Source: Chrysophaeum taylorii
Lineage: Eukaryota > Sar > Pelagophyceae > Pelagomonadales > Pelagomonadaceae
Assembly: GCA_029834535.1 (NCBI GenBank)
Contig: JAQMWT010000574.1
Location: 62,001-126,000 of the forward strand
Length of the DNA stretch: 64,000 nucleotides
Reading direction: 5' to 3'
The position numbers were made by a program, and so were the translations under genes. Every line of letters starts with the position of its first letter. Within the stretch, counting starts at the first letter, position 1. Positions 1 through 62,215 of this stretch are shown piece after piece. The notes under the pieces were generated by a model that saw only the letters and a program-made list of their open reading frames with translations, was not told where the DNA came from and made no database searches.

Positions 1-3000
1 CAGTCCAATCGGGTTCGTCCCAGGTGCCGCGGGCGGTGAGATTGTTGAGCCAAAAATAGTAGGTCGCGTTGGGCTTGCTTGGATTTGTGTGGAGCATGCG
101 CGCGTACTCGCCCCACTCCGGTTTCTCCTCGGCAAGTCTGGAGTTTCGGAGTACCGCGCCCGAAGGGTTGGGCGAAGTATAGAGACCACCCGGCAATCTC
201 TCGCGCTCAAAAGTCTCAAAGTTCTCGACGCAGTTTCGTCGGGCCTTGTCGCCGGGCTTGAGCGCGCCGATCGCGCGATGGTAGAAGCGCTCGGCGCGGT
301 CGAAGTCCCGCGCGACCGTTTGGAGCACGAGCGCGTAATCGAGGAGGGCGAGGGGGTGGTCGCGCTGGGAGATAACCGCCCAGTGGAACATGGTCTCCTC
401 GGCGAGCTTGAAGCGAACGCGGCCGGGGTCTCGAAGCTCGGCGTTTTTGAACATGTCGCGCGTCTTCTGGAAGATTACCTGGCGAGGGGCCTCGAGCGTG
501 AGGAGCATGAAGATGGCGTAGGCCCTCAGGAGCACAGGATTTTCGGGGGAGACTCGCATGGCATCTTTGTAGAGTTTGCGCGCGTTGTGCGTATCGAAGC
601 GCTGCGTGTGCAAGAGTAACGCGTAGTTGACCATCGACGAGAGGCGTTCGGGCGTCGACGCGTACTTGTCCTCGACTTCGCGCTGCATGCGGAGCGCGCG
701 GACGAGGTCCTCGAACCGCGGCTGCCCGAAGTCAGCGGCCTGCTTTTTGCGGTACACGCGCTGCATGGTGCGCGCCGCCTCGTCCACCGAGAGCCAGCTC
801 GATTGGCCCGTCGCCGGGTTGAAGTAGTAAACGTTGCCGTTCTCGTCGTCGACTTTCTGGCGCCATTCGTCGGGAGCGAGCTGCAAATCTTCCGACCCGA
901 GCAGCGCGGGCTTGTTCCAGAACATCTCTTCGGTTCGGAGGTCGACGTAGTAGTATTGGCCCGAGCCAACGTCGTACCGCTTCTCCCAGTTGGCACGGAT
1001 CATACGCCGCAGCCGCGCGAGCGATCGCCGTATCTTCCACATGCCCTGTATCGCCAGCGCCGCGCGTTCCTGCTTGACTTCGTCCATCTCGTACTCGAGC
1101 ACGAGACGCCGCCGCCTCTGCGCGCGAATCCCCAGCCGCTGGTACCAGATCACGCGCAGCCGCGCCATGAGCCACTTCAGGAGCTCCGGGAGGTGCTCGG
1201 CGGCGAGCATACTCAGCGGCCCCTCGCGTTGCTTTTTTCCATCATTAATGATGATGATTTTGGTCGGACCTTGTTCCCCATCATCATCGGGCGTCGCCGC
1301 GTCCTCGTCGTCGTCGTCGTCGTCGTCCGCGGACACTTGCGGAGGAGAGTCGTCCGCCGAGGAAGACCCACGAGCTTGCTGTTGGCTTGCGCGATCGGTC
1401 TTCTGCGCCTCGGCGGTAGTAGTTTCTTCTCCTTCTATGAACTTCTTCGCGGCGTCGAGCTCGGCGGGGGCGACGCTTACGCCGCTCTCCGCGAGCCTCA
1501 CGAGCTTGCGCGCATCGGCAACCCGGCGGCGACGCTCAACAGCCGCCGCCTCCTCTTGCGCCGCCGCGTCGGCCATGATCCATTCCTCGAGGTATTTTGT
1601 GGTGACCGAAGTGCGGAGCGTCTCGCACGTCTTGCCGCTGTAAGCGTGGAAGACGACCTCGTCCTCCGAGTGGAAGACGGTAATTACAAAGGCCTCGCCC
1701 GAGACGACGAGGCCACGCCGAAGCACCTGCGTGCCGCGCTCGCTGTGGCCGCGGCGCGTGAAGATGACGATTGGTCTCTTGCTGATGACGCGGACGAGAA
1801 GGCGGTCGGCGATGCGCGCGAGCGCGCCGGGCTCGAGGATCTCGCTGCCCGAGAGGCCGTCGAGGCCGAGAACGAGTTCGAGCGACGCTCTTACTTCCTC
1901 GTCCGTCATCTTGAACGTAAAAGTTTCTTGGGTCTGCGGCACGTACACCTCGAGCTTGAGTCCAAAGTTGGTCGTGGCCGCGGCTCGGCTCGTCTCGAGC
2001 CGCCGAATACACATCTTGACGAGCCACCCGCTGACGCGCTTGACGCGGCGGAAGACGACGCTGTCGCGGACTGCCGTCGCGCGCTCGTGTTGGACGGCGC
2101 GGCGCTCGGCCAGTCTCGCTCCGTACTCCTCGCGGGCGATGCGCGCGCGCTCGCGGTAGTCGCGGCCGACGGTGTAGTTCCTCCACATGGCCTGGACCCG
2201 ATAGGCTGCGCCGCAGCGTCGACGAAACACGAATCCCGCGCGCATGGCCGCGCGCTGGAGGCGATAGTGCTTGCGGCTAAGGAAGGCCCGCGCGAACGTC
2301 TCGATCGCCGTCGCGGCCCGGAGAATGCCGCGAAACGCAGCGTGTTGCCAGCGCCCGCGATGCGACGCTTGCACCCTGGTCGCCGCCGACTGGCGCCTGC
2401 CCTCGGCCAGCATCGCCAACACCTTGGCCTCGCGCCACGCGCGCCGACTGATTTCCGGGATCATCACGACGCGGTCCAACAACAGCCGCTGTAGGCTCTC
2501 GTGCCTCTCTTCCTCGTTTACGTCTTCCTCGAGGACGCCCTCGAGGTCCATCGCAACATGGCGTTTTTGCTTGTTGCGGGGACTTCCCGCCCTCCTCCTA
2601 TGATGATGATGATGATGATTGGCGCGGGGCGGTCGCGGGTACTTGACGAAGGCGAGCTCGATGAGCGCCTCCTTCAATCTCGGGCGGTTGAGCCGACCGC
2701 CCTTGGCCGGTTTGCCGTCGGCTTCGGTGGCGAGCTGGCGCTTGAAGGCGATGTCGACTTGTGCGGCGCGGACGGGGTTTGAGACGTCGGGCACGAGGTC
2801 GTTGTCGCGCGCGAACTTGGCCCACTTGGCACCGTCGACCTCCTCGCTCTGCGGGTACCACGAACAAAGGAGCCTGAAGATCTCGTCGATGAGGCGGTCC
2901 ACCGAAACAGCTTCAAAGAAGTGGACGCGCTGCATGTGCGTCTGCTGCGCGGCGAGGCTCCCCGCGTCTCGCGCCAAACGTTCGAGCGTCGCGTAGCGCA

Positions 3001-3322
3001 GCGGCACGCGGAAGTTGACTGCGGACTCGCGCGACTCGGCAAAATCGCCCGGGTGGTACTCGACGCCGCCGTTGTCGAACTCCACGCGCCAGCCCGGCCG
3101 CATGTCGAGTGCCTTTGGGACGAGCTTGTAGACAGTGAGCTCAGCGAACCGTGCGCCGAGCGGGATGTCGACGGCAGCGGGTTTCTGAATCTCGCGCTCT
3201 GCGGCGCCGGGGTCTTGGGGGTCTGCGAGGATGAGCGTATCAGGGTCGAAGTCTGGCGTTTTTTTTTTATGCTGAGTCTGGCTTCGCGGGAGATCGGGGG
3301 GGAAGACGTCGGTGCACTTGTG

Positions 3323-3354
<32 letters not shown>

Positions 3355-6300
3355 ACTCGTGGTCGTACGCGGTCGTCAACGCGACAGTCTTCCCTTGCGC
3401 GCACGAAACGTCCGCGAGACTCCAGTCCGCGCCCAGTCGATTCCCGATTCGCAGCACGTCCGAGTCGAATACGCCGAGCTGACCGACGTCGTCATCGAAC
3501 TCCACCACGTTGCTCCCCTGGACAACTTTGGCCGTCGTGCCGAGAGGCACTGCCACCGTTTGGAGCGTCGACGGAGTCTCCGGGTCAACCAGCTGGGGAA
3601 GACTTCGCGGGGGCGCCGCTTCGTCGGACCCCAGTGGTCCCGTCGGCAGGACGCGCGTCGACGTTCGGACAAACGCGTCCCGAATCTTTGAGAAGAGACG
3701 CCGTCGTCGGAAAGTCGGGCGCTCGCTCCTCCTCTTCGCTTTCGTTGGCTCGACGACGTTCTTCTTCTTCTTCTTCTTCTTCTTCCTCTTTAGCTTTTCG
3801 TCCTCCTCTCGGCCCTCGTCACCACCTGGTTGCTGTTGCTGCGGCTGCTCGTCCCCGGACCACGCGGCGGTGGCGTGCATCGCCGGGTGCTTACGCGTCA
3901 ACAGCACGACCACGGGCCGGCAGTTGATCGCGAGGCGATACGGCTCTTGGCGGCGAGCGCAAGGAGCACGCTGGTATAAGAAGCGGTAGTGACTCGGGAC
4001 ATCCTCGTCGTCGAGCTCGAGCGCGATTAGACGCCGGAGCTGCTCGAGCGTCGTCCCGTCGTCGATAGTCAAGGAGCCGATGAGCGCGCGGCGACCGGAT
4101 CCGTCCACGCCGATCGAGACGAGGTGGCTCTCGCGTACGAGGGTCGTCTCGAGAAGATATCTCGGCTGCGGCACCGACGACGACCCTGGCTGATCGCTCG
4201 TCTTCGCCCGCAGTTCGACTAGTTTGAGTTTCGCGGCGAGGTACCGCGCGAGCTCGTGCCGATTTCGCGCCCAGAGTAGGAGTGGTTTGTGCTCGGGATG
4301 CTCCGACGCGACGAGCAAGCGCGCGTCAGCTTCGGTCACGACCTTGGTCAGGTCGAAATTCAGAGAAGAGTCGGTCGCCACAGAGCACGACGACGACGAC
4401 AAAGGCAAAAATCTTTGGACGAACAAGGGCCGCTGCGGCGCGGTGTTCGAGGGGGCTTCGTCGCCATCGTTGCGACACGACGGCGGCGGAGCCACGAGAA
4501 CAGCGCGAAACACGAGGTCCTTGCCCACCGCCAACGCCTGAACCGTGGCGCTCTTGCCCGATATCCGTCGCACCTCCTGGTACACGACGCGGTCGATGTG
4601 GAGTCGAGCCCGCTGGTCTTCAATGTCGACGGTCACGCGCTCGCGCAGCAGGGCGAGCGCGCTGCCGGTCGGCTGGTCGTCGAGCCCGTCGTCCCGGCGG
4701 CAGCACAACGCGCGGATCTCGTCGACGCCGAGCACCAGCGACGCGATGCGGGCGCCATCGGTGGCCGGCGACGTCGGGTCAGAGTTCACCAGTCGAAGCT
4801 CTACGCCGCCTAGGTCAGGGCTTAGCTCGAGTTCGAGCGTGGCAGTCACGGGGGTGACGACGCGCGCCAGAGATGGCGTCAGCGGAATAGTCCCGTCGAC
4901 GTCGAGTCGTTCGTGGAGAGCAACGTCGCGAGTAGTCACCACTCTCGACTGCCGAGTTCGCGGGCGGCGGCTTTCGAAAGTGAGTCGCGACACGATCCAG
5001 TCAGCGACCGTTCGCAGGGCTTTCCACCGTAAATGCGCGCGCTCGTAGAGGCCGGCCTGGTGCAAGAGGAGGAGCTCGATCGCGTCGGCTCGGAGGTCGA
5101 GACTCAGAACGTCGCTCGGGTCGAGTTCGGTCACAGCGGGAGAAACTCTGACGTGCATTCGAAGCTCATCATCGAGGCGGTGGTAGCTGTCGGCCGCCAC
5201 GCTGACGTCTTGCTCGATCTCGTCCTTGTCGTCGCCACCCAGAGGTAGGCGTACCGAGACGTCGAGGCAGACGCCGTTGACGACTCGCTGCGAGAAGTGG
5301 AGACTGCGGCGCTCGCGATTCGCGAGTACCACGAGCTTCTGCTGCATCGAGGAGGAGTCCGCCGCAAGGCTATTGAAGATTGGCTTGAGCGCCAAGGCGC
5401 GATCAGCCGTGTTCGTCATGCTAGCGAGGTCGGACGGCAAGTATCCGGTGAGGCGGTCGACCTCCGCGCCGGGGAGAGCCCGCGGTTGCCAGGCGGCCTC
5501 GGCGGTCGAGGCCGACAGGAGAAGGTACTCGGCCATGATCGAAGCCGGGCGCTTAAGGGGCCCGTTGCAGCACGACATCGTCGTCTCTCGTTCGGTGACG
5601 ACAGCGTAGGCAGAAAACCGGAGGGGTGTCGCGGTCCCGGGCAGCTCGTACGCGACGTCGTGATACAACAACACTCTACGGTTGTGATCAACATCTCGGT
5701 GGTGGGTCTCCGACGAATTCACCTCGGTTTTCGGGGAAACCGAGCGCTGGTGGAGGGCCAGCACTTCCGACTTGAGCGAGGCGAGGTCGTTGCAGAGACC
5801 CTCGAGCTTACTGCGGGCTTCGTCGTCGCGCGCTCCGACCAAACTTCTCTTTACGCTACCTCCGCTCGCAGCATTTTTATCGTCCTCGTCGTCGCGGTCT
5901 TCGTCATCCTCGGCGGCAAAGGCAAAGGCGGTGCCGTCCATGGTGCACATGGTGTGCATCGCCTCGGCAACGCGATTTCGGTGGTGTCCGCCGTAAATCT
6001 CGACAACCCTCGGATCGACGCCGGGGAACGAAGCGTCCGTCCGCTGGCGCTTGGGCGTCGGCGAGGCGACGTCTTCCATCGTGCGAGGAGCCTTGGTCGA
6101 GTGGAGTACGACGAGCGCTTGCATCCACTCGTGCAAGCGCGCCACAGTCGTCGAGCACGCGCGAACCTCGTCTATCGTGAATTTCTCGGCCGTGAGAACG
6201 GGCCACACGAGGTGAAGGACGTCGCGGGGGACGGGCACGGCGGGATCAAACGCCGCGAGCTGCGCGGCGATGCGGCGCGGACCTTTGAGCAACGTGTGTC

Positions 6301-7546
6301 TAAGCGGTCGCGCGAGGAGCTTGTCCATGGGCGGAAGGCCTCGGCCGGGCGTCCGGGCGAGCTTTTGATGGAGTAGGAGATGGAGACAAGCGAGCGTCGC
6401 GACTACCGGGAGCCGAGGTCGGGCCTGGATCGCGAGCATATCGAGGTCGCGCGCGTCGACGTCGGGAGGCCGCGCGCGCATGGCCTCGCTCTCCGTCAAT
6501 GCAAGTCGACCCGTGAGCTCCGCGCGAAGGCCGTCCGCCCTCACCGCGCGCTCCTCGGCCACTATCGCCCTCGCGACCCGTCGATGTCTCACGCGGTCGA
6601 GCTGGTCCGTAGTCGAGCCCGAAAATGAGATCTCGTTGGTCGGCGACGCGGCCTCGAGAGCGTCGAGGTCCGCGTCCAAGAGGAGCGGATTCCGGGCGCG
6701 AGGCGGCTCGGAAGAGCCACCAAACTCGCCTTTGATGGCGGCGACGAGGGCCGCCGAAGCGCCCATGAGTTGTTCGGTGTCGTCGCCCGCGGCCAAACGC
6801 AGCAGGTAATTTTGCCCTTCCCACATGAACGCCGGGAGGAGCTTGGCCTCCGGGGATGTCCGGTCGGCGTTGACGAGACTGCGTCGCCAGTCCAGGATGG
6901 CCTCGACCGCCAAAACGGTGCGCTCGCGGATATCGCGCGCGGCCGCGGTCGCGTCGACGGTTCCGGATACCGAATCGTCGACGACCTTCTCCAGGTACGC
7001 CTCGCGCGCGACGACTGCGGCGGCCGCGGCCTTGTAGAGTTCCTCAACGGCCGCATGCTGCGACCGCGTGGTTGCGTGCTGCGGAAGGAGAGCGAGCTTG
7101 CTGAGGCCTCGTCGGTAAGGCGACTCGCGACCGTCGCGAACGTTTCTATCGCGGTGCCTCCTCGGGGACGACGTATAATACTTGGAGGAGGCGTCGACAC
7201 AGCGACTCTCGAGACGACGTTCAAGCCTGTGCTGCTGCTGCTGCTTATGCGCATCGCTGTCGAGGAGACCCGAGGCGGCGACGACGACCTCAAACCTCGC
7301 CGACTGCCGCAAACAGCTCAAGCTTCTTTGGTGGTTTTGCCGCGGTCGTCGTTCTTCTTGGGTCGTCGCGCTCGAGGGGCGCGACGCGTTTTCTTTCCGC
7401 GTCGCCGGCGGCCGGCGGCCGTGCGCCGAGGAGGGGGAGGCGGAAGAAACCCTCGGCGGTGGCGGCGTCGAGAGATTCCGCAGCATTGGGACGCATTCAG
7501 GAGTATCTCTGACGCTTCGGGACATATCCTGCCCATACAGATACAT
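1..7546 (-). CDS. Giant IQ-motif / WW-domain / TPR-type repeat protein (C-terminus off left edge)
   Basis: I read the minus frame base by base from 7546 to 1 and found no stop, so this is a single open frame of about 2,500 codons that continues past the left edge. The nearest upstream stop is at 7571-7573. In-frame ATGs lie at 7546, 7525 and 7486; I prefer 7486 because the upstream ones overlap a TATA-like element. The N-terminal half is poorly conserved and has Lys-, Asp- and Thr-rich tracts. Around 2400-2110 there are IQ-like calmodulin-binding motifs (for example AATRVQASHRGRW and AAYRVQAMWRNY), and another near 1050 (ALAIQGMWKIRRSL). Two WW domains follow near 960-800 (GQYYYVDLRTEEMFW, GNVYYFNPATGQSSW) and a third sits at the edge (YYFWLNNLTARGTW). 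HAT/TPR-like helices lie between (DRAERFYHRAIGALKPGD). The architecture suggests a calmodulin-regulated scaffold, possibly ciliary; that role is inference. Confidence 0.85.
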
Positions 7547-7553
7547 ATATAAA
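7547..7553 (+). promoter_or_regulatory. TATA-like element of the bZIP-PAS gene
   Basis: The sequence TATATAAAAC lies about 145 nt upstream of the bZIP-PAS start codon, inside the roughly 200-bp space shared with the divergent giant gene. Its orientation suits the plus-strand gene. No transcript start is visible, so the assignment is tentative. Confidence 0.4.
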
Positions 7554-7697
7554 ACCGTCCATTTAAAAGCTTACCCCCCGACATTGGAACTTCAACTACA
7601 AATAAGACCTGAATCTGGGATTCAAGGCTAGAGTTTCTACATCTAGGCGAGCGTATAGAGCGTTTTTACGGCGACAGCAGGCGCCTCAATCTGCAGG

Positions 7698-13534: not shown

Positions 13535-16500
13535 ATGCGGAGTATCTTGCGTACTCTCGCTGGCATGGCGGTTGTCGTCGAGGCGTGAGTTCGTGTCCGA
13601 TCCCCCGAGACGCTCGAGCACGCAGGCGTCGGGTCGTCGGGCTAGGGTCGCTCGAGGAGCGGCTGCGGTTGCTTGAGGACTCGTGCTACAGCTACCACCC
13701 CAGGCCGGGCGAGTGGTGGGGGTACACGTGGTGCCACCGCCGCGACGTCAAGCAATTTCATGAGTCGGAAGACGACGAGACGCGCGTCGAGTGCGTGTGT
13801 TGCGGCGATGGCGCGAGGTATTGGCAGCAGGTACTCGCTGGGCGCGTTCTCGGCGAGCAAGACTTCGGCCGAAAAGGCCAAGCGCGGCGTCGCGTCTACG
13901 CACGTCTTTGTCGACGGCGATGTCTGCGTGTGCGTGTTGTGTCCTCCTCCTCCTCCTCCTCCTCAGAGTCTCCTCGCAGGCGGCCGCGCGCGGAGGACGA
14001 CGACGAGTTTCGAAGAAAAGGCAGAAACGCCGACGCGAGTAAAATCGTATTATTTCGTCGTCCTCGAAATCTCGAGCGCAGGGCGCGGCGTTATTGCAGC
14101 AGCAGCAAAAGACGAGACGACAGGCGACGGTGACGTTTGCGTGCTGTCGCAACGCGTCGAGTCGGCCGGGCGACGGCGCGGGCTACGAGGCAAAGAACGA
14201 GCGACGGTACGTCGCGGTATGGGTCGCGTCCGTCCGCGAGTCGAGGCCGTGCGAGTACGATATCACCGTCTGCACGCGGGCCCTCGCCTGTGCATTCGAC
14301 GAGGAAATCGACTTTCCCTCGGCGGCGGCGGCGGCGCGCGTCGAAAAAAAATCGCGACGAGGAACCGACGACGACGACGACGACCTGAGGCGCATGTCGG
14401 CGGGCGCGCGGCGCGCCTACCGGGACGCGGCGAAGCGAATGTTCGTGGAGGCATACGACGCGTACATGAGGTACGCCTTTCCCGCGGGCGAGCTGCGGCC
14501 CGTGACGTGCCAAGGCGGCGACCTCGACCTCGTCAAGGTTCCGGCGGTGACTCTGATCGACGCGCTGGATACGCTCGCTGTGATGGGCAACGCGACCGAG
14601 TTCCGGCGAGCCGTCTCGCTGGTGACGGCCGTCTACGCGGAGGGGTTCGACATCGACGCCAACGTGTCGGTGTTCGAAACAAACATCCGCGTCTTGGGCG
14701 GGCTCCTGTCGGCGCACGCGCTCGCGGCCGACGAGGACGCGGGTTTGGCGGAGGACTACGACGGCGGGCTGTTGAAGCTCGCGGTCGACTTGGGGTGGCG
14801 GCTGATGCCCGCGTTCGAGACGACGACGGGCATTCCCTACGGCACCGTCAACCTGCGGTACGGCGTGCCGCGCGGCGAGACGACGGTCGCGTCGCTCGCG
14901 GGCGGCGGCTCGCTCTCGCTCGAGCTCTCGGTCCTCTCGGCGCTCTCGGGCGAGCCCGCGTTCGGGATCAAGGGCCGCGGCGCCGCGCGCGCCCTCTACG
15001 AACGGCGGTCGGCTTCCCTCGGCTTGCTCGGCAAGCACATAAACGTCCAGTCGGGCAAGTGGGTCGAGGCCCTCTCGGGCATCGGATCGAACTCGGATTC
15101 GTTCTACGAATATCTGGTCAAGAGTTACGCTCTCTTCGGCGACGACGAGTCGTGGGCCATGTTTTCCGACGCCTACGAGGCCGTCGTCAACGTCGCGCGC
15201 CGGGGAGACTGGTACTCGGACGTCGACATGTTCACCGGCAAGCCGCGACGACACCACTTCGAAAATCTCCAGGCCTTCTGGCCGGGCGTGGAGGTGTTTT
15301 CCGGCGACGTTGCTTCGGCCGCGCGATCGCTCAACGCGTTCTACCTCGTCTTCGCCGACTGGGTCGGCCTGCCCGAGGACTTTGACTTCGGCTCGATGCA
15401 GCTCTTCGCGTCCTCGAAATCATCCCACCGGTCCCCGCTTCGACCGGAGCTCCTCGAGTCCACCTACATCCTGCACCGCGCGACGAGCGACCCCTCGTGG
15501 CTCTGGGCGGCCGCGCGAGCTCTCGAGGCGCTCGAGGCGGTCAACCGCGCCCCGTGCGGCTTCGCCGCCCTCGAGAACGCGGCCCTCCAGACCCTCGACG
15601 ACGAGATGCCCTCCTTCTTTCTCGCCGAAACCGCCAAGTACCTCTATCTCATCTTCGAGCCGGACAACCTCGTCGATCGCGGCGACTACGTCTTCTCGAC
15701 CGAGGCCCACCTCTTCAGCTCGCGCGCCGTGCGCGCCGCGCTCGCCGAGCCCCCCGCCGCCGACCAGGAGGAGGAGGACGAGGAGGCGCGCCCGCCGAGT
15801 CCGACTCGTCTTCAACAAAGCGACCAACAACAACAACAACAACAACAGCAAGGCCTCGTGCGGCGCGGGCTCGAGCTCTGGCGTCGGATTTCGCCCTTCC
15901 CTCGGCTCCCCGACGACGACGTCGCGGGGCCGCTGCCGCGCCGTAGCGGCTCGAACGACGGACGAGGGGTCAAAAACGTCAACGCGTACTCGGCGGCGAG
16001 CGCTGCCAAACGGTGCGCGCGGCTCGAGTGGTGGGAATCGGCCGCCTACGATCCCGACTTTGACGACGTTCTCGAATCGAGGCCGACGCGCCGCCGACGC
16101 GACCAAAGAGTCTTCTTTTCGCCATCCGTCGAGCGCCACCATTGTCTCGCGTCCGACGACGACGACGACGACGAGGAGTCTTCTATCTCGATCAAGACTC
16201 CCCTCGCCGGGAGCTCAAAGCTCTGGGAACAAGTCGGCCGCGCCCAAGTCGTGACCGCCGCCGCCCGAGAAGAAAAAAAAGAAGAAGATGAAGACCTCGG
16301 GCCCTTTCGCTTCGAGATCTTCGCCGACGGCTTTCACGTCCGCAACGAGGGCGACGGCGAGGTCCTCGAAATATCCAGCGTCGGTCCTTCGCTCGCGCAA
16401 GCCTCCTCGACGATCGACGACGATGCCGTCGTCGTGACCGTCGACTCGGACGGCCTCGAGATCGCGTGCGCGCTCGAGATAAGCCGGGGGCTCGACCGCG

Positions 16501-17318
16501 TCGCCGTCATCCCGTGTACCGTCGCCGCGTTCGGGGCTACGGCCGCCGTCGCGACATCGGCGGACGTCGAGGACCAAAGCGCGGAACTCATCGTCGCCGA
16601 CGCGCGCCTCGTCTTCCCCGGGGTCCCCGACAACCGCGGCTGTGCGTACGACCGAGTCCTCTATCCGCCCGACGACAAAGCCCCGCCGGCGCTCTTCGTC
16701 GTTCGCCGCGGGACCTGCCTCTTCGAGGACAAGGCCAGACTCGCGGAGCGAGCGGGCGCCGCGGGCCTCGTCGTTATCAACTCCGTGCCCGGCCTGCATC
16801 GTTTCGTCATGGCCAGCAACACGGAAGACGATAACGAGGACGACTCGCGAGTCGTCGACGTCGCAGCCGTCATGATCTCTCGCGACGACGGCGCGTTCGT
16901 CGAGTCCATAACATCCGAAGACGACCTCGACGAACTACGGGCCACACTCCGCGTCCTTAAGCGCCCGCTCTCCTCCGACTCGGTGCTCGAGGTGCGCGCG
17001 GCCAAGAACGGACTTCACGTCTGGGGTCGCGGCGACTGGGGCGTCTTTGTCGAATCGCGGTCGATCGACGCCCCCGACGCGCCCGCCGAATGGCAGCTCT
17101 TCATCACGCGCAGACCTCCCTGCGACCTACCCTCCGTCGCGTCCGATTTCGCCTTTCTTGACACGGGGGCCTACTCGGCGCCTCTGCGCGACAGCGAAAA
17201 CCACTTCGCTTTGGCGAGCGAGGTCAGACGCTGCAAGTGCGTCGTCGAGAACAACAACCTCTCGTCGCCCGATATAAACCGAGGCCACCGCTATGCCGAT
17301 CACTCCCACAGACGATAG
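13535..17318 (+). CDS. MRH lectin - GH47 (EDEM-type) alpha-mannosidase - PA domain fusion
   Basis: Exons 13535-13584, 13626-13790, 13831-13927 and 14100-17318 give 1,176 aa. The introns are 41, 40 and 172 nt, and 14081 is an alternative last acceptor. A short hydrophobic N-terminus (ILRTLAGMAVVVEA) fits a signal peptide. Residues about 37-170 form an OS-9-type MRH domain. It has the double-Trp motif (GEWWGYTWC), a Gln in VKQFH, an Arg in TRRQATVTF, and Glu and Tyr in VRESRPCEY, matching the mannose-binding residues of OS-9. GH47 follows at about 195-645. Its catalytic acids are present: FETNIR, GSNSDSFYEY, RPELLEST, and the late STEAH motif. A PA domain (VRRGTCLFEDKARLAERAG) lies near 930-1040, as in EDEM3. 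MRH and the start of GH47 share one exon and a roughly 25-residue linker with no second signal peptide. Expected in the ER lumen in ER-associated degradation; no KDEL-like end. Confidence 0.88.
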
Positions 17319-45252: not shown

Positions 45253-45412
45253 AATCAATCGCTTAAGATGTTGTTGACCTCAAGCAGGAAGGAAGACACA
45301 CGGCAATCGTGCGTCAGATAAGTCCGTTTGTTCAACGGGCCTCTATCAGTCAGTCAGTCAGTCACAACTCGGCGCGCTTGATCGGCATATTTTATGCGCT
45401 TTGCACCATAAT

Positions 45413-48400
45413 ATGGTGGAAAGGGGTCGGGGCTACGTCTCTGGGGACGTCGCCTGGGCGAAGCTCCAGGGGCTGCCGTGGTGGCCGTGCGTGGTTTTCG
45501 AGACGTGGGACGAGCTGATAAAGTGGGATCTGCCGCACAAGGTCGAAGACAAGCCCCTCGTTGAGGCACACCAAGTGGTGTGCTGCTTTCTCCACACCTA
45601 CAACCTCCAGGTCTTTGAGAAAGGGACCGCGGCGATCCGGGGGTGGGAGGATTCGGAATTTAAGGAGGCGATTAACTGCGTGAGGCGGGCTTCGCCGGGA
45701 TGTCGGACGAGTGACCACGATTCGCGCGCGCCGGCGTCTCGATTTGCGTCTCGACGTCTTGACGGTCGTCGCAGGAAGCGGCGGCGGCAGGCGATTCGGG
45801 ATGCGATGGAGCTCGTCATGTTGGCACGGGGCGAGATCGACGACGTGCACCAGGACGAGGAGGCGAAGAAGCGGCAGATGCCGTCCGAGTCGAGCCAAGA
45901 ACCTCCCGCCAAGCGCGCGAGAACGCGATCCTCGACGGCGGCGGCCGCCGTCGAGGATGCCCTGGCCGCCGCGCCAAAGGACTGGCTCGAGGCGCTGCGT
46001 TTGCTTCGCGGCATGACGGCGGCGAACGGTCGCGAGATCAAGCATGTCGTCGACACCGCCGCCAGGTTGGCGAGGGAGGCCGGCGCGAGCGCCCGAGTGC
46101 TCGGACGCCTCTCGCAGTGCGTCTCGGACCCCCTCTTTCGGACCGAAGACGCGGGCCTCTGCCGCATCATGGGTCTCCGGATCCTCGAAGACTACACGAG
46201 CGCTTCCAGCGCCGAGGACGCTGCGGAGGCGAGCCACGTCTCGGTCGACGAGACGGCGCCGGCGCCGGCGCCGACGCCGGCCCGAGACGAAGAGCAGCCT
46301 CGGTATCCGCAGCGAGACGCGCCCGAACCGCAACTACTGCGGGAGGATCCCCCGCAGCAGCAGCAGCAGGAGGAGGAGGAGGCCGAGGACCCGGCTTCGG
46401 AAGCACCGGCCGCATCGATCGTTTTGCACGAGGAGGAACCGGCGCAATTGCCGTCGTCGCAGCCGCCAAGAGTGATCTCGACGCCCGACGCGCCCGTCGA
46501 GCGGCCGACCCCTTTGGCGCTGGTCGAGCCGCCGCGCCCGCCGCAGCCCACTCAAATGATCGTGACTCGAGACGCGGTGGTCCAGCCGCTACCGGTCGAT
46601 CGGCAGACCCCCGCCGCGCGCGTCCAAGTCCCGAGCCCGCCGCGGCCGACGCGGGTGATCGTGGCGCTAGAGGTGCCGATCGAGCAGCCGAGCCACGACG
46701 TAGGGGTCGTACTACCGAGGCACGACGTGCTGCTCGCGCCGCAGCCCGCACCGGCGATCGTGGGAGAAGATGCGGCGCCACCACCACCGAGCCGCGAAAA
46801 AGGTTTGGTCGCGGCGACGAGCGAATACGACGACGAAAGGACCACCGAAAAACTGTTGTCTTTGGAGCCGTCGCGCCGCGACGGCGACGACGCGCCGGTC
46901 GTCGCCGCGCCCCCCAGTCACGAAGACGTCGCCGAGGCGCCGAGCAGGCCGCAGAGCCCCGTGGCATTTGCCGGGCGGCGACACCCCGACGGTCGGCGTC
47001 TCGCGAGCGGTTCGGACGGCGCGCCGACGACGCTCGCGTGGCTCGTGGCCGACGGCGTCGTGACGCCCGGCGAGCTGCTCCTGGAGCAGCCCGACGGCAC
47101 GATCATCCGCGCTGAGGTTTTGGGCGACGGGAAATTGATGTGGCGCGAGATGGAATTCGCAGACGTCGAACAGTTTGTCGCGGCGGCACGAGAAGCCAAC
47201 GGGCTTCGCGCGCCGCGCGCGACGCAGGCCAGACGCGTCTGGGAGCGCATCAAGCACGTCCCGAGCGGCCGGCCGCTCTCGTCGTTCTTGCCCAAGCCCG
47301 CGGAGGAGAGTCCGACGCAGCAGCAGCAGCAGCATTCGTCGCCGGGGGCGCAATCGTCGTCGGCGACGCATTCGCGAGACGCGCACCATAGAAAGCAAGA
47401 CGCGACGACGACGACGACGACGACGACGAAGCGCGAGCGCGAGCGAAGCAGCCGCAAGCGGAGTCGAAGTAACCGGAAGGACGAGGATTCGAGAAAGCGC
47501 AAGGAGGAGCACGCGCGGCCGCACGTCAAGGCGACCATCTCGGTCTCGAGGCTCGCGTTCTCCGACCCGCCCGCGTTCCTCGCGACGCATCCTCAGGCGA
47601 CCGACGCGGCCTCGGCGGCCGACGCGACGCGCAAGGAGACGCCGCTGAGCGAGTACTGGACGAGCAAGGTCTCGAGCACGGAAAGCGCGGCGAGCGTCTG
47701 GGACGACGGGTACTTCACGGACGACTCCGGGGACGAGGAGGTGAAGACCTCGAACAACGAGACGACGACGCAAGACGACGAGGACGTCGTTCGCGCGCTC
47801 GCCGAAGATCTCGGGCAGCAGCATCAGCAGCAGCAGCAGCGCGCTTCGCGGCGGCCCAAGCGCGGTCGTCGCGACGCGCTCCTGCGCATGCGGGGAATCG
47901 TCGACGGCCTCGCCCAAAATCGGCTCGACCCGCACGCGCTCGTGAGTTGCGAGCCCTACGACGACGCGACGCGATATTCTCCCGCTAACAACGGCGGAGA
48001 GACGACGACGACGACGACGACGACGCGCGCCGGGTCCTCCTCCTCCTCCTCCTCCTCCCAGCAGCCCTTCTCTTTGGTCGTGCACCCCGACGCGGCGTTT
48101 CTGTGCGACCTTCACGCACACCTGGCCGAAGCCGAGATAATCGGACTGCTCGGCGGCCGTTGGGACGCCGCGCGGCGCGCGATGCACGTCCAGGCACCCT
48201 TTCCGTGCCGGGCGACGCCGCGCGACGACGACGGCGCGACCGACGTCGAGATGGACCCGACGTCCGAACTCCAGGTCCGCGAGATAATCCGCAGCCACGG
48301 CATGGAGGTCGTTGGATGGTACCACTCGCACCCGAAGTTTGCCGCCGAGCCGAGCGTCACCGACATCGACAACCAGCGCAGTTACCAAGGTCTCTTTCAC

Positions 48401-49831
48401 GACGATCGGTCGGGCCTCCAGCCTTTTATCGGTCTGATCGTCGGCACCTACGACAGCGCCAGTCCGAGCCCGAGCTCGATATTTCGCTACTTTCACGTCG
48501 CGCCGCCACCCGACGCGTACGCGAAAGAGGGTGCTGCTGCTTCCCAATGGACGACCGCCGAGAGCGACGACAATCACGAGGGTCTTCGCGACACAGGAGG
48601 AGGAGAGCTGCCGGGATTCGACTCTCAGGCGGGACGACCGAGGACGGACTCGGTGGCCACCGACGAGTATCCCGAGGAGAACGACGAAGACCGACGACAA
48701 CAACGCTCCTCGCGGAGCGGTCGCCGGCATAGCCGCCGCGAGGAAGGCGGTGGGGGTTCTACTTCTTCTTCGAACCGACGGCAAGGACCGCCGCCGCCGA
48801 TGATTCCCATGTCGCTTCGCGCCAAGGTCCGCTCGTATCGGCGGCATCTCGACGCCGCCGAGCGCCAGGAGCGGCGACTTAACGGTCCGCCGGAGCCTCC
48901 GGTCCCGAGACAGTCGGAGGCACCGTTCAATTTCGCAAAGCTCTGCGGCTTTGGATGCCTGTGTTGCCCGCCGAACAAAGGTCGCCGGGCCGATCTCGGA
49001 GGAGACCGGGCGGCGGCGGCGGCGGCGAAGCAACCCGTGACCGCGGCGCAAGTGATCTCCGCGGCGAATCTAGCCGCCGCGACGCAGGTTGCGCCGCCCT
49101 GGCAATTGCCCGCGATTATTCCCGACGGAGCGCAACCGGGTGGATACTACGGACCGGGCGGCGGCGGCCTCGCGGCAGAAGCCCTCCCGCCGGTCTTTGT
49201 TGGAGGTGATCCCCGAGTGGTCGCGGCTGCGTTCGCGCATCAAGGAGCCGGCGATTTTCCCCTCAACCCGCAGGGCGGCGATCGTATTTTTTCGGAGCAT
49301 TCCGAGCAATCCGAGCAATCGGGGGGGAAGAGCGACGAGGAGCGACGACGGCGTCAGAGACCGGGCCGGGGCGAAGCCGTGGTGGATTCGAATTCGAATT
49401 CGAATTCGAATTCGAACGACGCGGCGAAGAAAACGCGCGAAGAGGTCATCGATGCCATCTGCGGCGCCGTCAAGGAACGCGTCGACAGAGCCAGGCGACA
49501 GGCGGCCCCGGACGACGCGGGCGCCGCGTGGGCTCGCCTCGAAGAACGCTACGGCCGGTCGAAGCTGAGCTGCGTCGCGCATACCGTGCGTCAACTCGGC
49601 AGGTACTACGGCCGCCACGAACGGCGCGTCGACCTCGCGACCCAATGGCGCAAGGACCTCGCGAAATGGGAAAAACTCCTGCACTCGCTAGCCCCCTGGA
49701 CGCTCAAGATGGCCGTCGAGCCCGACGACAGAATCGATTTCCTTTCCGACGTCTTTGTGTACATGCACGCCTGCTGGCGGACCAAACCAAAACGCAAAAG
49801 ACCGCCGCAGCCGTCTCGTCGTCGCTCCTAG
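45413..49831 (+). CDS. PWWP - RAMA - JAMM/MPN domain protein (MPND/MYSM1-related)
   Basis: One exon from ATG 45413 encodes 1,472 aa. A PWWP domain starts at about residue 10 (SGDVAWAKLQGLPWWPCVVF); such domains bind methylated histone tails and DNA. A helical segment and long Pro/Glu-rich linkers follow. At about 538-600 lies a RAMA-like domain (LVADGVVTPGELLLEQPDG, ADGKLMW-like GDGKLMWREMEF). The MPN core at about 895-1045 has the Glu in EAEIIGLLGG and the metal ligands in GWYHSHPKFAAEPSVTDID (His971, His973, Asp984), so the JAMM motif is complete. Animal MPND has RAMA plus MPN, and MYSM1 deubiquitinates histone H2A; neither has PWWP. A conserved-looking helical domain ends the chain (ATQWRKDLAKWEKLLHSLAP). 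Probably a chromatin deubiquitinase. Confidence 0.85.
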   Translation: MVERGRGYVSGDVAWAKLQGLPWWPCVVFETWDELIKWDLPHKVEDKPLVEAHQVVCCFLHTYNLQVFEKGTAAIRGWEDSEFKEAINCVRRASPGCRTSDHDSRAPASRFASRRLDGRRRKRRRQAIRDAMELVMLARGEIDDVHQDEEAKKRQMPSESSQEPPAKRARTRSSTAAAAVEDALAAAPKDWLEALRLLRGMTAANGREIKHVVDTAARLAREAGASARVLGRLSQCVSDPLFRTEDAGLCRIMGLRILEDYTSASSAEDAAEASHVSVDETAPAPAPTPARDEEQPRYPQRDAPEPQLLREDPPQQQQQEEEEAEDPASEAPAASIVLHEEEPAQLPSSQPPRVISTPDAPVERPTPLALVEPPRPPQPTQMIVTRDAVVQPLPVDRQTPAARVQVPSPPRPTRVIVALEVPIEQPSHDVGVVLPRHDVLLAPQPAPAIVGEDAAPPPPSREKGLVAATSEYDDERTTEKLLSLEPSRRDGDDAPVVAAPPSHEDVAEAPSRPQSPVAFAGRRHPDGRRLASGSDGAPTTLAWLVADGVVTPGELLLEQPDGTIIRAEVLGDGKLMWREMEFADVEQFVAAAREANGLRAPRATQARRVWERIKHVPSGRPLSSFLPKPAEESPTQQQQQHSSPGAQSSSATHSRDAHHRKQDATTTTTTTTKRERERSSRKRSRSNRKDEDSRKRKEEHARPHVKATISVSRLAFSDPPAFLATHPQATDAASAADATRKETPLSEYWTSKVSSTESAASVWDDGYFTDDSGDEEVKTSNNETTTQDDEDVVRALAEDLGQQHQQQQQRASRRPKRGRRDALLRMRGIVDGLAQNRLDPHALVSCEPYDDATRYSPANNGGETTTTTTTTRAGSSSSSSSSQQPFSLVVHPDAAFLCDLHAHLAEAEIIGLLGGRWDAARRAMHVQAPFPCRATPRDDDGATDVEMDPTSELQVREIIRSHGMEVVGWYHSHPKFAAEPSVTDIDNQRSYQGLFHDDRSGLQPFIGLIVGTYDSASPSPSSIFRYFHVAPPPDAYAKEGAAASQWTTAESDDNHEGLRDTGGGELPGFDSQAGRPRTDSVATDEYPEENDEDRRQQRSSRSGRRHSRREEGGGGSTSSSNRRQGPPPPMIPMSLRAKVRSYRRHLDAAERQERRLNGPPEPPVPRQSEAPFNFAKLCGFGCLCCPPNKGRRADLGGDRAAAAAAKQPVTAAQVISAANLAAATQVAPPWQLPAIIPDGAQPGGYYGPGGGGLAAEALPPVFVGGDPRVVAAAFAHQGAGDFPLNPQGGDRIFSEHSEQSEQSGGKSDEERRRRQRPGRGEAVVDSNSNSNSNSNDAAKKTREEVIDAICGAVKERVDRARRQAAPDDAGAAWARLEERYGRSKLSCVAHTVRQLGRYYGRHERRVDLATQWRKDLAKWEKLLHSLAPWTLKMAVEPDDRIDFLSDVFVYMHACWRTKPKRKRPPQPSRRRS

Positions 49832-53753: not shown

Positions 53754-55059
53754 TTAGGCGCGGCCGGAGGCTTTCTTTTTGTGTGCCTTACTTTGAACGT
53801 GGTTCTCCATTTGCTTCGCCGACTTGAAGGTCTTTTTGCACAATTCGCACGAAAACACGTTGACAATATCGTCGTCGTCGTCGGCATCGTCGCCGAGATC
53901 GTGGCCATTTGAAACAATCGGCGGCTGTTCGCCGCCATTCTTCGGAGAAGGCAGCGCCCCTTCGGCGTCGCCGTTCCGTGAGGTGGTGGTGGGTTCGCCG
54001 ACGTCGGAATGAGGACCACCTTGGTCGCCCGCGTCGTCGGGACCATTGCTCTTTTTCTGGGATTGCCTTCGTCGGCCCTTCTTGCCGCGCTTCGATCCGG
54101 ATCCAAGAACATCGTCGTCGTCGAGGTCGGCGAGAAGGGCCCCTGTGCGGACCTCGTATGCGTCGAAGGCTGAGTCGTCGGCCCGCTCGTTTCTCCATCG
54201 CTGACGCGCCAAAAGGTTCTCCTGTCGCTTGGCGTTCTTGTCGGCGACAGCCTTGGCGGCCTTGTCGGCCTTCTCCTTCTTAACTTGCGCGGCACGTCGC
54301 GCGACGCGGGGATCGCGCTTGCGGCACCACAGCGCGAGCTGCCGTACCATGTCCTGATATTCCTGCTTGGCCAACTTGCGCTCCCGCTTATTGTCCGCGT
54401 CGGCAGCCCTGCGGACTTGCCTCGGCAAGTCGCTCGCGACCTTCCATTTGTCGTAGGCCGCGAAGGTACGCTGCGAGGTGAAATCGACGAACACGTCGTA
54501 AAACTCCTTGACATCGTCCCAGGGTGACTTGGCGTCGCCAAACGGCGTCCGCTCCAAGCTCGGCCCAATCTCGGCCACCTCGGCATCCTCGACCATCGTG
54601 AACGCCTTCGAGTACACCGCCCAGAACGACCGATCCGATGTCCCGAACCCGTCGAAGGCGCTCGCGCTGAAATAAGGCCACAAATTCACCTCGTGCTTCT
54701 TGAGCCTGGGCCCGCGCCGCTCGTCTTCGCTGTCGTCCGTCGAATGCAAGTCGTCCATGCTTTCGCCGCCCCGCAAGATCTCGTCGCGATGCGCGTCATA
54801 CCACGCCTTCTCCCGCGCGTCCGACAAGCACTCGTACGCCCCCTGCAACTCTTTGAATCTTTCGTTCGCCGTCGCCACGTCATCCCCACGTTGCTGTGCC
54901 TTGTCCTGTCCACCGCCTCACGAGACACACATCCACGCCACGCACCGGATGGAGCTGAACCGCGAGCTTCTTATACGCTTTTCGCACATCCTCTTCGCTC
55001 GCGTCTCGACCAAGCCCGAGGACCTCGTAGTAACATTTCTTGGGCGTCGTGCCCACCAT
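53754..55059 (-). CDS. DNAJC21: DNAJC21/Jjj1-type J-domain and C2H2 protein
   Basis: Exon 1 is 55059-54946 and exon 2 is 54905-53754, with a 40-nt intron (GTGCGT...GACAG); 421 aa. The splice rebuilds the J domain: [29 protein letters not shown] joined to DKAQQRGDD, then [16 protein letters not shown], so the HPD triad spans the junction. A central region has [15 protein letters not shown] and the coiled coil [20 protein letters not shown] typical of this family. The C-terminal zinc finger is [20 protein letters not shown] with two His. Jjj1/DNAJC21 stimulates Hsp70 to recycle export factors from cytoplasmic pre-60S ribosomes. Human proteins have a second finger; here one is visible. Confidence 0.92.
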
Positions 55060-61864: not shown

Positions 61865-62215
61865 CAGGCCAGTAAGTTCACCTAGTCCCAATCTCTAACC
61901 CCAGTAAGTTCACCTAGTCCCAATCTCTAACCCCAGTAAGTTCACCTGGTCCCAGTAAGTTTCATATAAGTTCACCTGGTCAGTAAGTTCACCTAGCTCC
62001 AACCAACTCCTTTGAGCTCGTCGCTCTCGCCTCCGCCAATCTAAGCTGCTTTGGTCCGCACGCGCCGCCAACCTTTGAGTTTACTCTAAAAACCCTTTAC
62101 TCTGAAAACCCCAGTATGTTCACCTGGTCCCAGTTTCACCTGGTCACTCAGTCCACCTAGTCCCAATCTCAAACCCCAGTAAGTTCACGTGGTCCCAGTA
62201 AGTTCACCTATAGTG
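61865..62215 (-). repeat. Cluster of CCAGTAAGTTCACCT motifs (right arm)
   Basis: At least eight copies of the motif or close variants. Two are in exact 33-bp tandem units that include AGTCCCAATCTCTAACC. Confidence 0.85.

Follow-up and report, generated by a model that had tools for sequence, protein, structure and literature searches.

The stretch of Chrysophaeum taylorii DNA analysed here (the window: 64,000 nucleotides, positions 62,001 to 126,000 of contig JAQMWT010000574.1) contains a gene on its forward strand, at 13535-17318, which encodes a signal peptide, an OS-9-type MRH lectin domain, an acidic linker, an EDEM-type GH47 mannosidase domain, a beta domain and a PA domain. In the endoplasmic reticulum (ER)-associated degradation of yeast and animals, Htm1/EDEM writes a sugar mark that Yos9/OS-9 reads, and both tasks are carried out by separate proteins. 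Comparisons of sequences and predicted structures confirm that the MRH-GH47 fusion is real and would be made as one polypeptide, a domain architecture that, as far as we have seen, is apparently unreported and is built of known component domains. As for its role, we regard as an evenly balanced proposition that it is an ER-lumenal EDEM-type alpha-1,2-mannosidase with its own OS-9-type MRH, which would hold clients for trimming.

A lectin and a mannosidase in one gene

A four-exon model starting with the ATG at 13535 gives an open protein of 1176 amino acids in a reading-frame check, with three introns (13585-13625, 13791-13830 and 13928-14099) that all show GT..AG borders; all features of the gene lie on the forward strand. 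Exon 1 (13535..13584) provides the start codon and the signal peptide, MRSILRTLAGMAVVVEA, and the NCBI protein at the locus (P0001, CTAYLR_006786, 1205 amino acids) has an identical N-terminus. Exon 2 (13626..13790) carries the N-terminal half of the MRH domain, with a sub-threshold PF07915 fragment, exon 3 (13831..13927) carries its middle, with the same residues in P0001, and exon 4 (14100..17318) the remaining MRH, the linker, the GH47, beta and PA domains and the stop codon. The splice sites of the early exons are predictions, and the 5′ border of exon 4 is uncertain: intron 3 is spliced differently in the two models, and P0001 shows extra residues at the start of this exon, which fits an acceptor just before 14082. 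An open reading frame (ORF) of 1091 codons (14043-17318) spans the C-terminal part of MRH, GH47 and PA without interruption. A preliminary description of this DNA had claimed one gene for the three domains, with the C-terminal part of MRH and GH47 in a single uninterrupted exon and a short acidic linker with no second signal peptide between them, and these points are borne out by the open spliced frame, by Pfam domains above their cut-offs, by the ORF and by the linker itself (14292..14408), whose 39 residues contain DDDDDD and no hydrophobic stretch. The genome has been reported as 71 megabase pairs in 702 contigs, with gene prediction by RNA-seq and homology (PMC10366177), and the version searched here comprises 70,800,356 bases in 697 contigs.

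That two adjacent genes were mis-joined by assembly or gene prediction is hardly credible. The predicted splice sites of the first exons and the differing models of intron 3 are the points that might be raised in its favour, and no support for it was found; on the other hand, part of MRH and GH47 share the uninterrupted ORF, the same join is found in independent genomes, and MMETSP/EukProt transcript ORFs such as P0012, P0037, P0059 and P0061 have both domains in one reading frame. The mis-joined assembly that the preliminary description had named as a possible refutation is thus rejected, and a chance arrangement is ruled out because many species have the same domain order.

The MRH domain (amino acids 34-168; 13675..14291, introns included) reaches 35.9 bits with PF07915 (MRH/PRKCSH) on P0001, over a cut-off of 27, and the predicted fold of a relative, P0002, resembles that of OS-9. 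The unspliced frame over the MRH exons scores 17.3 bits, below the cut-off, and a genome-wide PF07915 search run exon by exon gave no match at the fusion locus, misses that are expected because introns split the domain; since the latter search overlooked the MRH of the fusion itself, further intron-split MRH genes may have been overlooked. The six positions of the OS-9 sugar site are all present, W47-W48 (13714-13719) and Gln60 (13753-13755) in exon 2, and Arg111 (14118-14120), Glu151 (14238-14240) and Tyr157 (14256-14258) in exon 4, and they align with invariant residues in three other MRHs of the C. taylorii genome. The best PDB sequence matches of the domain are erlectin (E-value 2.2e-6) and OS-9 (1.6e-4).

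The GH47 domain, of the EDEM type, starts at amino acid 208 (14409..15716) and scores 337 bits on the ORF 14043-17318, against a cut-off of 22.9. Catalytic acids E297, D437 and E554 and the calcium-site Thr638 are present, so that the intact OS-9 sugar-binding set and the three intact GH47 acids described at the outset are both found by alignment. The EDEM Cys pair, C241/C590, is also present and is kept in all of the 58 fusions aligned here, which were picked by hand from 111 positives; the degenerate P0034 and P0097 were excluded, as were many proteins that are truncated or nearly identical to others. The roles of the catalytic and calcium-site residues are presumably those of class I mannosidases, and that of the Cys pair presumably that of EDEM proteins. 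By sequence, the GH47 domain matches yeast Htm1 (8zpw) best in the PDB; Htm1 also comes first by Foldseek E-value with the P0002 model, with the C. thermophilum EDEM (8pko) second. A low-complexity stretch separates GH47 from the beta domain, which in the P0002 model precedes the PA domain (16602..16895; PF02225, 52 bits on the same ORF), whose fold matches the PA domain of VSR1. This model, predicted for the relative, is unreliable on how the lectin and enzyme sites face each other.

Compared with known systems, the fusion resembles EDEM/Htm1 (Mnl1) in its GH47 domain with the full catalytic set and the EDEM Cys pair, but no MRH figures in the domain descriptions of PMC12170172, where Mnl1 combines a mannosidase domain with a C-terminal domain that binds clients and has Pdi1 as its partner, and EDEM1 and EDEM2 are essentially a mannosidase domain alone. 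EDEM3 shows GH47, an intermediate domain and then PA (PMC7926307), and the fusion has GH47, a beta domain that may correspond to the intermediate one, and PA; EDEM3 is described without MRH and with a C-terminal KDEL. No KDEL-type retention signal is found at the C-terminus of the fusion (...DHSHRR), which is not filed as EDEM3. OS-9/Yos9 and XTP3-B (erlectin) share with it the double Trp, Gln, Arg, Glu and Tyr, and the P0002 model matches 9og0 and 3aih; OS-9 and XTP3-B are not known to have an enzyme domain. Glucosidase II likewise pairs a glycosidase with an MRH in ER quality control, but differs in its two subunits, its GH31 catalyst, its trimming of glucose and the pocket of its MRH, which is less deep than in OS-9 (PMC6272264).

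Distribution, conservation and descent

Two protein searches, with the best 120 of 1759 and the best 120 of 2798 matches retained, gave 169 distinct homologues, P0001 included, and an MRH profile, seeded from 35 PF07915-flagged proteins and then iterated, finds MRH before GH47 in 111 of them. The proportion rises to 103 of 125 among those with at least 100 amino acids before GH47; the 44 with fewer are poorly judgeable, and eight of these are positive. Among the 22 negatives with at least 100 amino acids is P0033, whose MRH, degenerate by eye, escapes the iterated profile. Shuffled N-termini gave no match (10 shuffles each of the first 120 proteins, with earlier profile rounds only), and neither did the parts from GH47 onward, except for P0073, whose MRH had been cut onto the C-terminal side.

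Precomputed Pfam assignments place MRH and GH47 together in Saprolegnia, Achlya, Thraustotheca, Aphanomyces, many Phytophthora, downy mildews, Pythium, Globisporangium, Lagenidium and the labyrinthulid Hondaea, to which the profile adds Pelagophyceae sp. CCMP2097, Aureococcus, Tribonema minus and Diplonema papillatum. Pfam itself was rerun within this set on P0001, P0061 and P0124, and the last of them, from D. papillatum, stays under the cut-off by Pfam alone (17 versus 23 bits). When the MRH of P0061 was used in a region search, it matched only P0061 itself, which limits the reach to further eukaryotes. Other stramenopiles do have MRH and GH47 in one entry, a check proposed in the preliminary description, in many proteins and some transcript ORFs. 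The fusion is not peculiar to C. taylorii, being present in oomycetes, a labyrinthulid, other ochrophytes and Diplonema. The statement of the preliminary description that it knew of no described fusion of this kind is supported, since no description of an MRH-GH47 fusion was found among the papers listed from open-licence PMC text, with most subscription papers outside its range. The main text of a study of Phytophthora parasitica reports five GH47 proteins and does not contain the terms 'MRH' or 'PRKCSH' (PMC4176579). Dozens of proteins already carry labels for both domains from automatic annotation. A writer and a reader-type domain are joined in one protein across much of the stramenopiles, including many water moulds.

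All six lectin residues are kept in 40 of the 58 aligned fusions. Ten of these proteins are called diplonemid-type here, on the basis of the named P0124, of P0059 (whose prefix Hpha we take to mean Hemistasia phaeocysticola) and of tree position; among the other 48, the first Trp is found in 40, the second Trp, Gln, Arg and Tyr in 47 each, and Glu in all. The GH47 acids are complete in 57 of the 58, Tribonema having Gly instead of Asp. Median pairwise identity within the 48 is 0.29 for MRH, 0.53 for GH47, 0.14 for the linker and 0.13 for the tail, and the conservation of pocket residues next to a freely varying linker and tail suggests selection on the lectin pocket. These numbers also bear on the idea that the MRH has been inherited mainly as an aid to folding or solubility, with a dispensable sugar binding: the domain is indeed degenerate or absent in several lineages, but the second Trp, Gln, Arg, Glu and Tyr persist in 47 or 48 of the 48 with an overall MRH identity of 0.29, which leaves this explanation very improbable, bearing in mind that the 48 are hand-picked and that the degenerate P0033, P0034 and P0097 are outside them.

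The history of the fusion was approached through quick GH47 trees, which include no animal or fungal EDEM and in which most stramenopile-labelled rows are metagenome proteins. A tree of 60 rows, from which the long branches P0097, P0156, L001 and L002 had been removed, places the fusions and a clade lacking MRH on one side (98 in the Shimodaira-Hasegawa-like approximate likelihood ratio test, SH-aLRT), and on the other the plant MNS4-type proteins, the EukProt protein P0096 and the C. taylorii EDEM-like L004. In a first tree of 64 rows, with the long ones in, the plants separate the Hondaea group from the remaining fusions (supports 84 and 89), so that a single origin depends on removing the long branches; with this proviso, the GH47 tree agrees with the fusion having arisen once. 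The 64-row tree separates 62 rows, plant MNS4 included, from L001 and L002 of C. taylorii (SH-aLRT 100), and in such comparisons the GH47 of the fusion groups with the EDEM side, apart from these two genes, which we read as mannosidase I. The closest named unfused relatives among the matches listed are plant MNS4 proteins, with 29-41 amino acids before GH47. The clade lacking MRH, which at a guess consists of diatoms, adjoins the MRH-bearing P0074, a position that suggests loss of the domain in that clade. Diplonemid-type rows (support 100) fall among stramenopile rows, and forcing the stramenopiles together costs 27.7 log units (approximately unbiased test, p-AU 0.056), by which a gene transfer involving diplonemids is suggested, not settled.

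Possible roles of the fused lectin

The proposal that the MRH holds clients for the attached mannosidase would work as follows. The MRH would bind N-glycans in which the terminal alpha-1,2-mannose of the C-branch has been removed and the alpha-1,6-mannose exposed, and a misfolded, multiply glycosylated client so bound would be held on the enzyme; the GH47 domain would then trim the other glycans of this client, in a self-reinforcing commitment step, and the client would finally be passed to separate two-MRH lectins and a Hrd1-type ligase. The binding and trimming steps agree with published accounts in which the MRH of OS-9 binds the alpha-1,6 arm but does not accept a further alpha-1,2-mannose (PMC6272264), and Arabidopsis AtEDEM1 and AtEDEM2/MNS4 redundantly remove the C-branch mannose, exposing the alpha-1,6-mannose (PMC9302962). 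In C. taylorii, ALG9 is encoded on contig C573 and an ALG12-like gene on C688, whose PDB match is titled only Mannosyltransferase. With both genes present, the alpha-1,6-mannose arm should exist, the name ALG12-like being tentatively assigned by a motif.

Coupling of writer and reader would be plausible. More tentatively, the protein could be a self-reinforcing write-and-read enzyme, in which GH47 would make the alpha-1,6-mannose mark and its own MRH bind it, so that one trimmed glycan would commit the whole client; this would have been an ancestral stramenopile invention, which may have reached diplonemids by gene transfer, with the lectin pocket retuned there (double Trp replaced) and lost or decayed elsewhere.

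Several findings weigh against the proposal of an EDEM-type enzyme with its own lectin. The structure by itself does not point to EDEM in particular, since VIA-align Z scores, whose rows cover chiefly the GH47 part (161-611), put bacterial GH47 enzymes from Caulobacter level with or above Htm1 (49.2 versus 47.2). The double Trp is absent in 10 of 10 diplonemid-type fusions, in which Gln, Arg and Tyr are kept in nine and Glu in eight; among three brown algal proteins, P0033 and P0034 show a degenerate MRH without the Trp pair; and one clade of long proteins lacks MRH, all of which indicates that some lineages can do without the lectin coupling. Moreover, no MRH is found in Albugo candida P0088, Aphanomyces astaci P0053 and Pythium insidiosum P0068, with 0-25 amino acids before GH47, where either true loss or short gene models may be responsible. 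Finally, separate EDEM-like and MRH-lectin genes coexist with the fusion in C. taylorii: an EDEM-like GH47 gene without MRH on contig C361, and two proteins with two MRHs each and an XTP3-B-like layout on C495 and C78 (L007, 805-1875, and L008, 625-1926). The preliminary description had named a separate EDEM and OS-9 pair, with a mis-joined locus, as what would refute it, and of these the separate EDEM-like and two-MRH genes are there, and the mis-joining is not. The fusion therefore adds to the separate pair and does not replace it, and its role as a substitute for missing separate genes is rejected for this species.

The third of these brown algal proteins, the partial P0151 of Ectocarpus fasciculatus, has a good MRH and groups away from the degenerate P0034 of Ascophyllum, and is either a paralogue or a contaminant of its assembly.

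The nature of the MRH pocket bears on a different function, that of a docking arm as in glucosidase II, which would select GH47 substrates and not read the product. Glucosidase II is a known pairing of a glycosidase with an MRH, and the MRH of its beta subunit binds mannose on a still untrimmed arm and speeds catalysis (PMC3386995 and PMC6272264); the missing Trp pair of the diplonemid-type fusions would suit this role, and so would a precomputed PF13015 (PRKCSH_1) tag in four of these ten (P0059, P0061, P0123 and P0125, confirmed in P0061). However, the same tag falls on the oomycete fusion P0036 and on two-MRH lectins and is therefore not specific, and the OS-9 residues, Trp pair included, are complete in the C. 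taylorii protein and in the 40 fusions mentioned above. A profile of the fused MRH gives 115.2 and 60.4 bits to the two MRHs on C495 and 39.6 and 99.7 to those on C78, where the first is the weaker, and 43.5 bits to glucosidase II beta, which is encoded on C81 and probably also on C9; its best scores thus go to the OS-9/XTP3-B-like proteins, one C78 MRH falling under glucosidase II beta. By pocket residues and profile scores, the fused MRH appears nearer to the OS-9/XTP3-B type, the glucosidase II beta type being less likely; the comparison covered MRH alone, and the OS-9 label denotes a domain type, with no claim of orthology. A docking arm is, in our view, a doubtful explanation.

The two-MRH lectins also matter for the possibility that the fusion is a ligase-side receptor, whose MRH would bind glycans on a Hrd3/SEL1L homologue or on clients and so place the enzyme at the dislocation complex. 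A link of OS-9 to SEL1L, presumably via glycans, has been described (PMC6272264), and an OS9-SEL1L-HRD1 complex has been solved (9og0). Nevertheless, the two-MRH lectins, with their XTP3-B-like layout, are the more natural receptors, and no OS-9 region beyond MRH was seen in the fusion, none having been specifically looked for; we consider this role unlikely.

If the write-and-read enzyme is true, its relatives would form a series, made by nature, of enzymes with the reader on or off. The fusion raises the testable question of whether the reader acts back on the writer, and natural variants for such tests exist, with the Trp pair present or replaced, or the MRH decayed or lost.

Other GH47 genes and further features of the window

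The C. taylorii genome holds four GH47 loci, on contigs C594, C493 and C361 and at the fusion. The two read above as mannosidase I type are L001 (C594, 334-2871), in which GH47 is accompanied by an N-terminal concanavalin-A/laminin-G-like domain (PF13385, 64.9 bits), and L002 (C493, 1492-3552), with PAN domain matches ahead of the catalytic domain. L001 is another possible lectin-enzyme pairing in this genome.

Elsewhere in the window, a large ORF at 45278-49828 contains a JAB/MPN peptidase domain together with a RAMA-like stretch under the Pfam cut-off, an open frame of 2523 codons on the reverse strand (2-7570) runs to the window edge and has a WW domain in its later part, and the region 53757-54917 shows matches to a Zuotin-like domain and a C2H2-type zinc finger.

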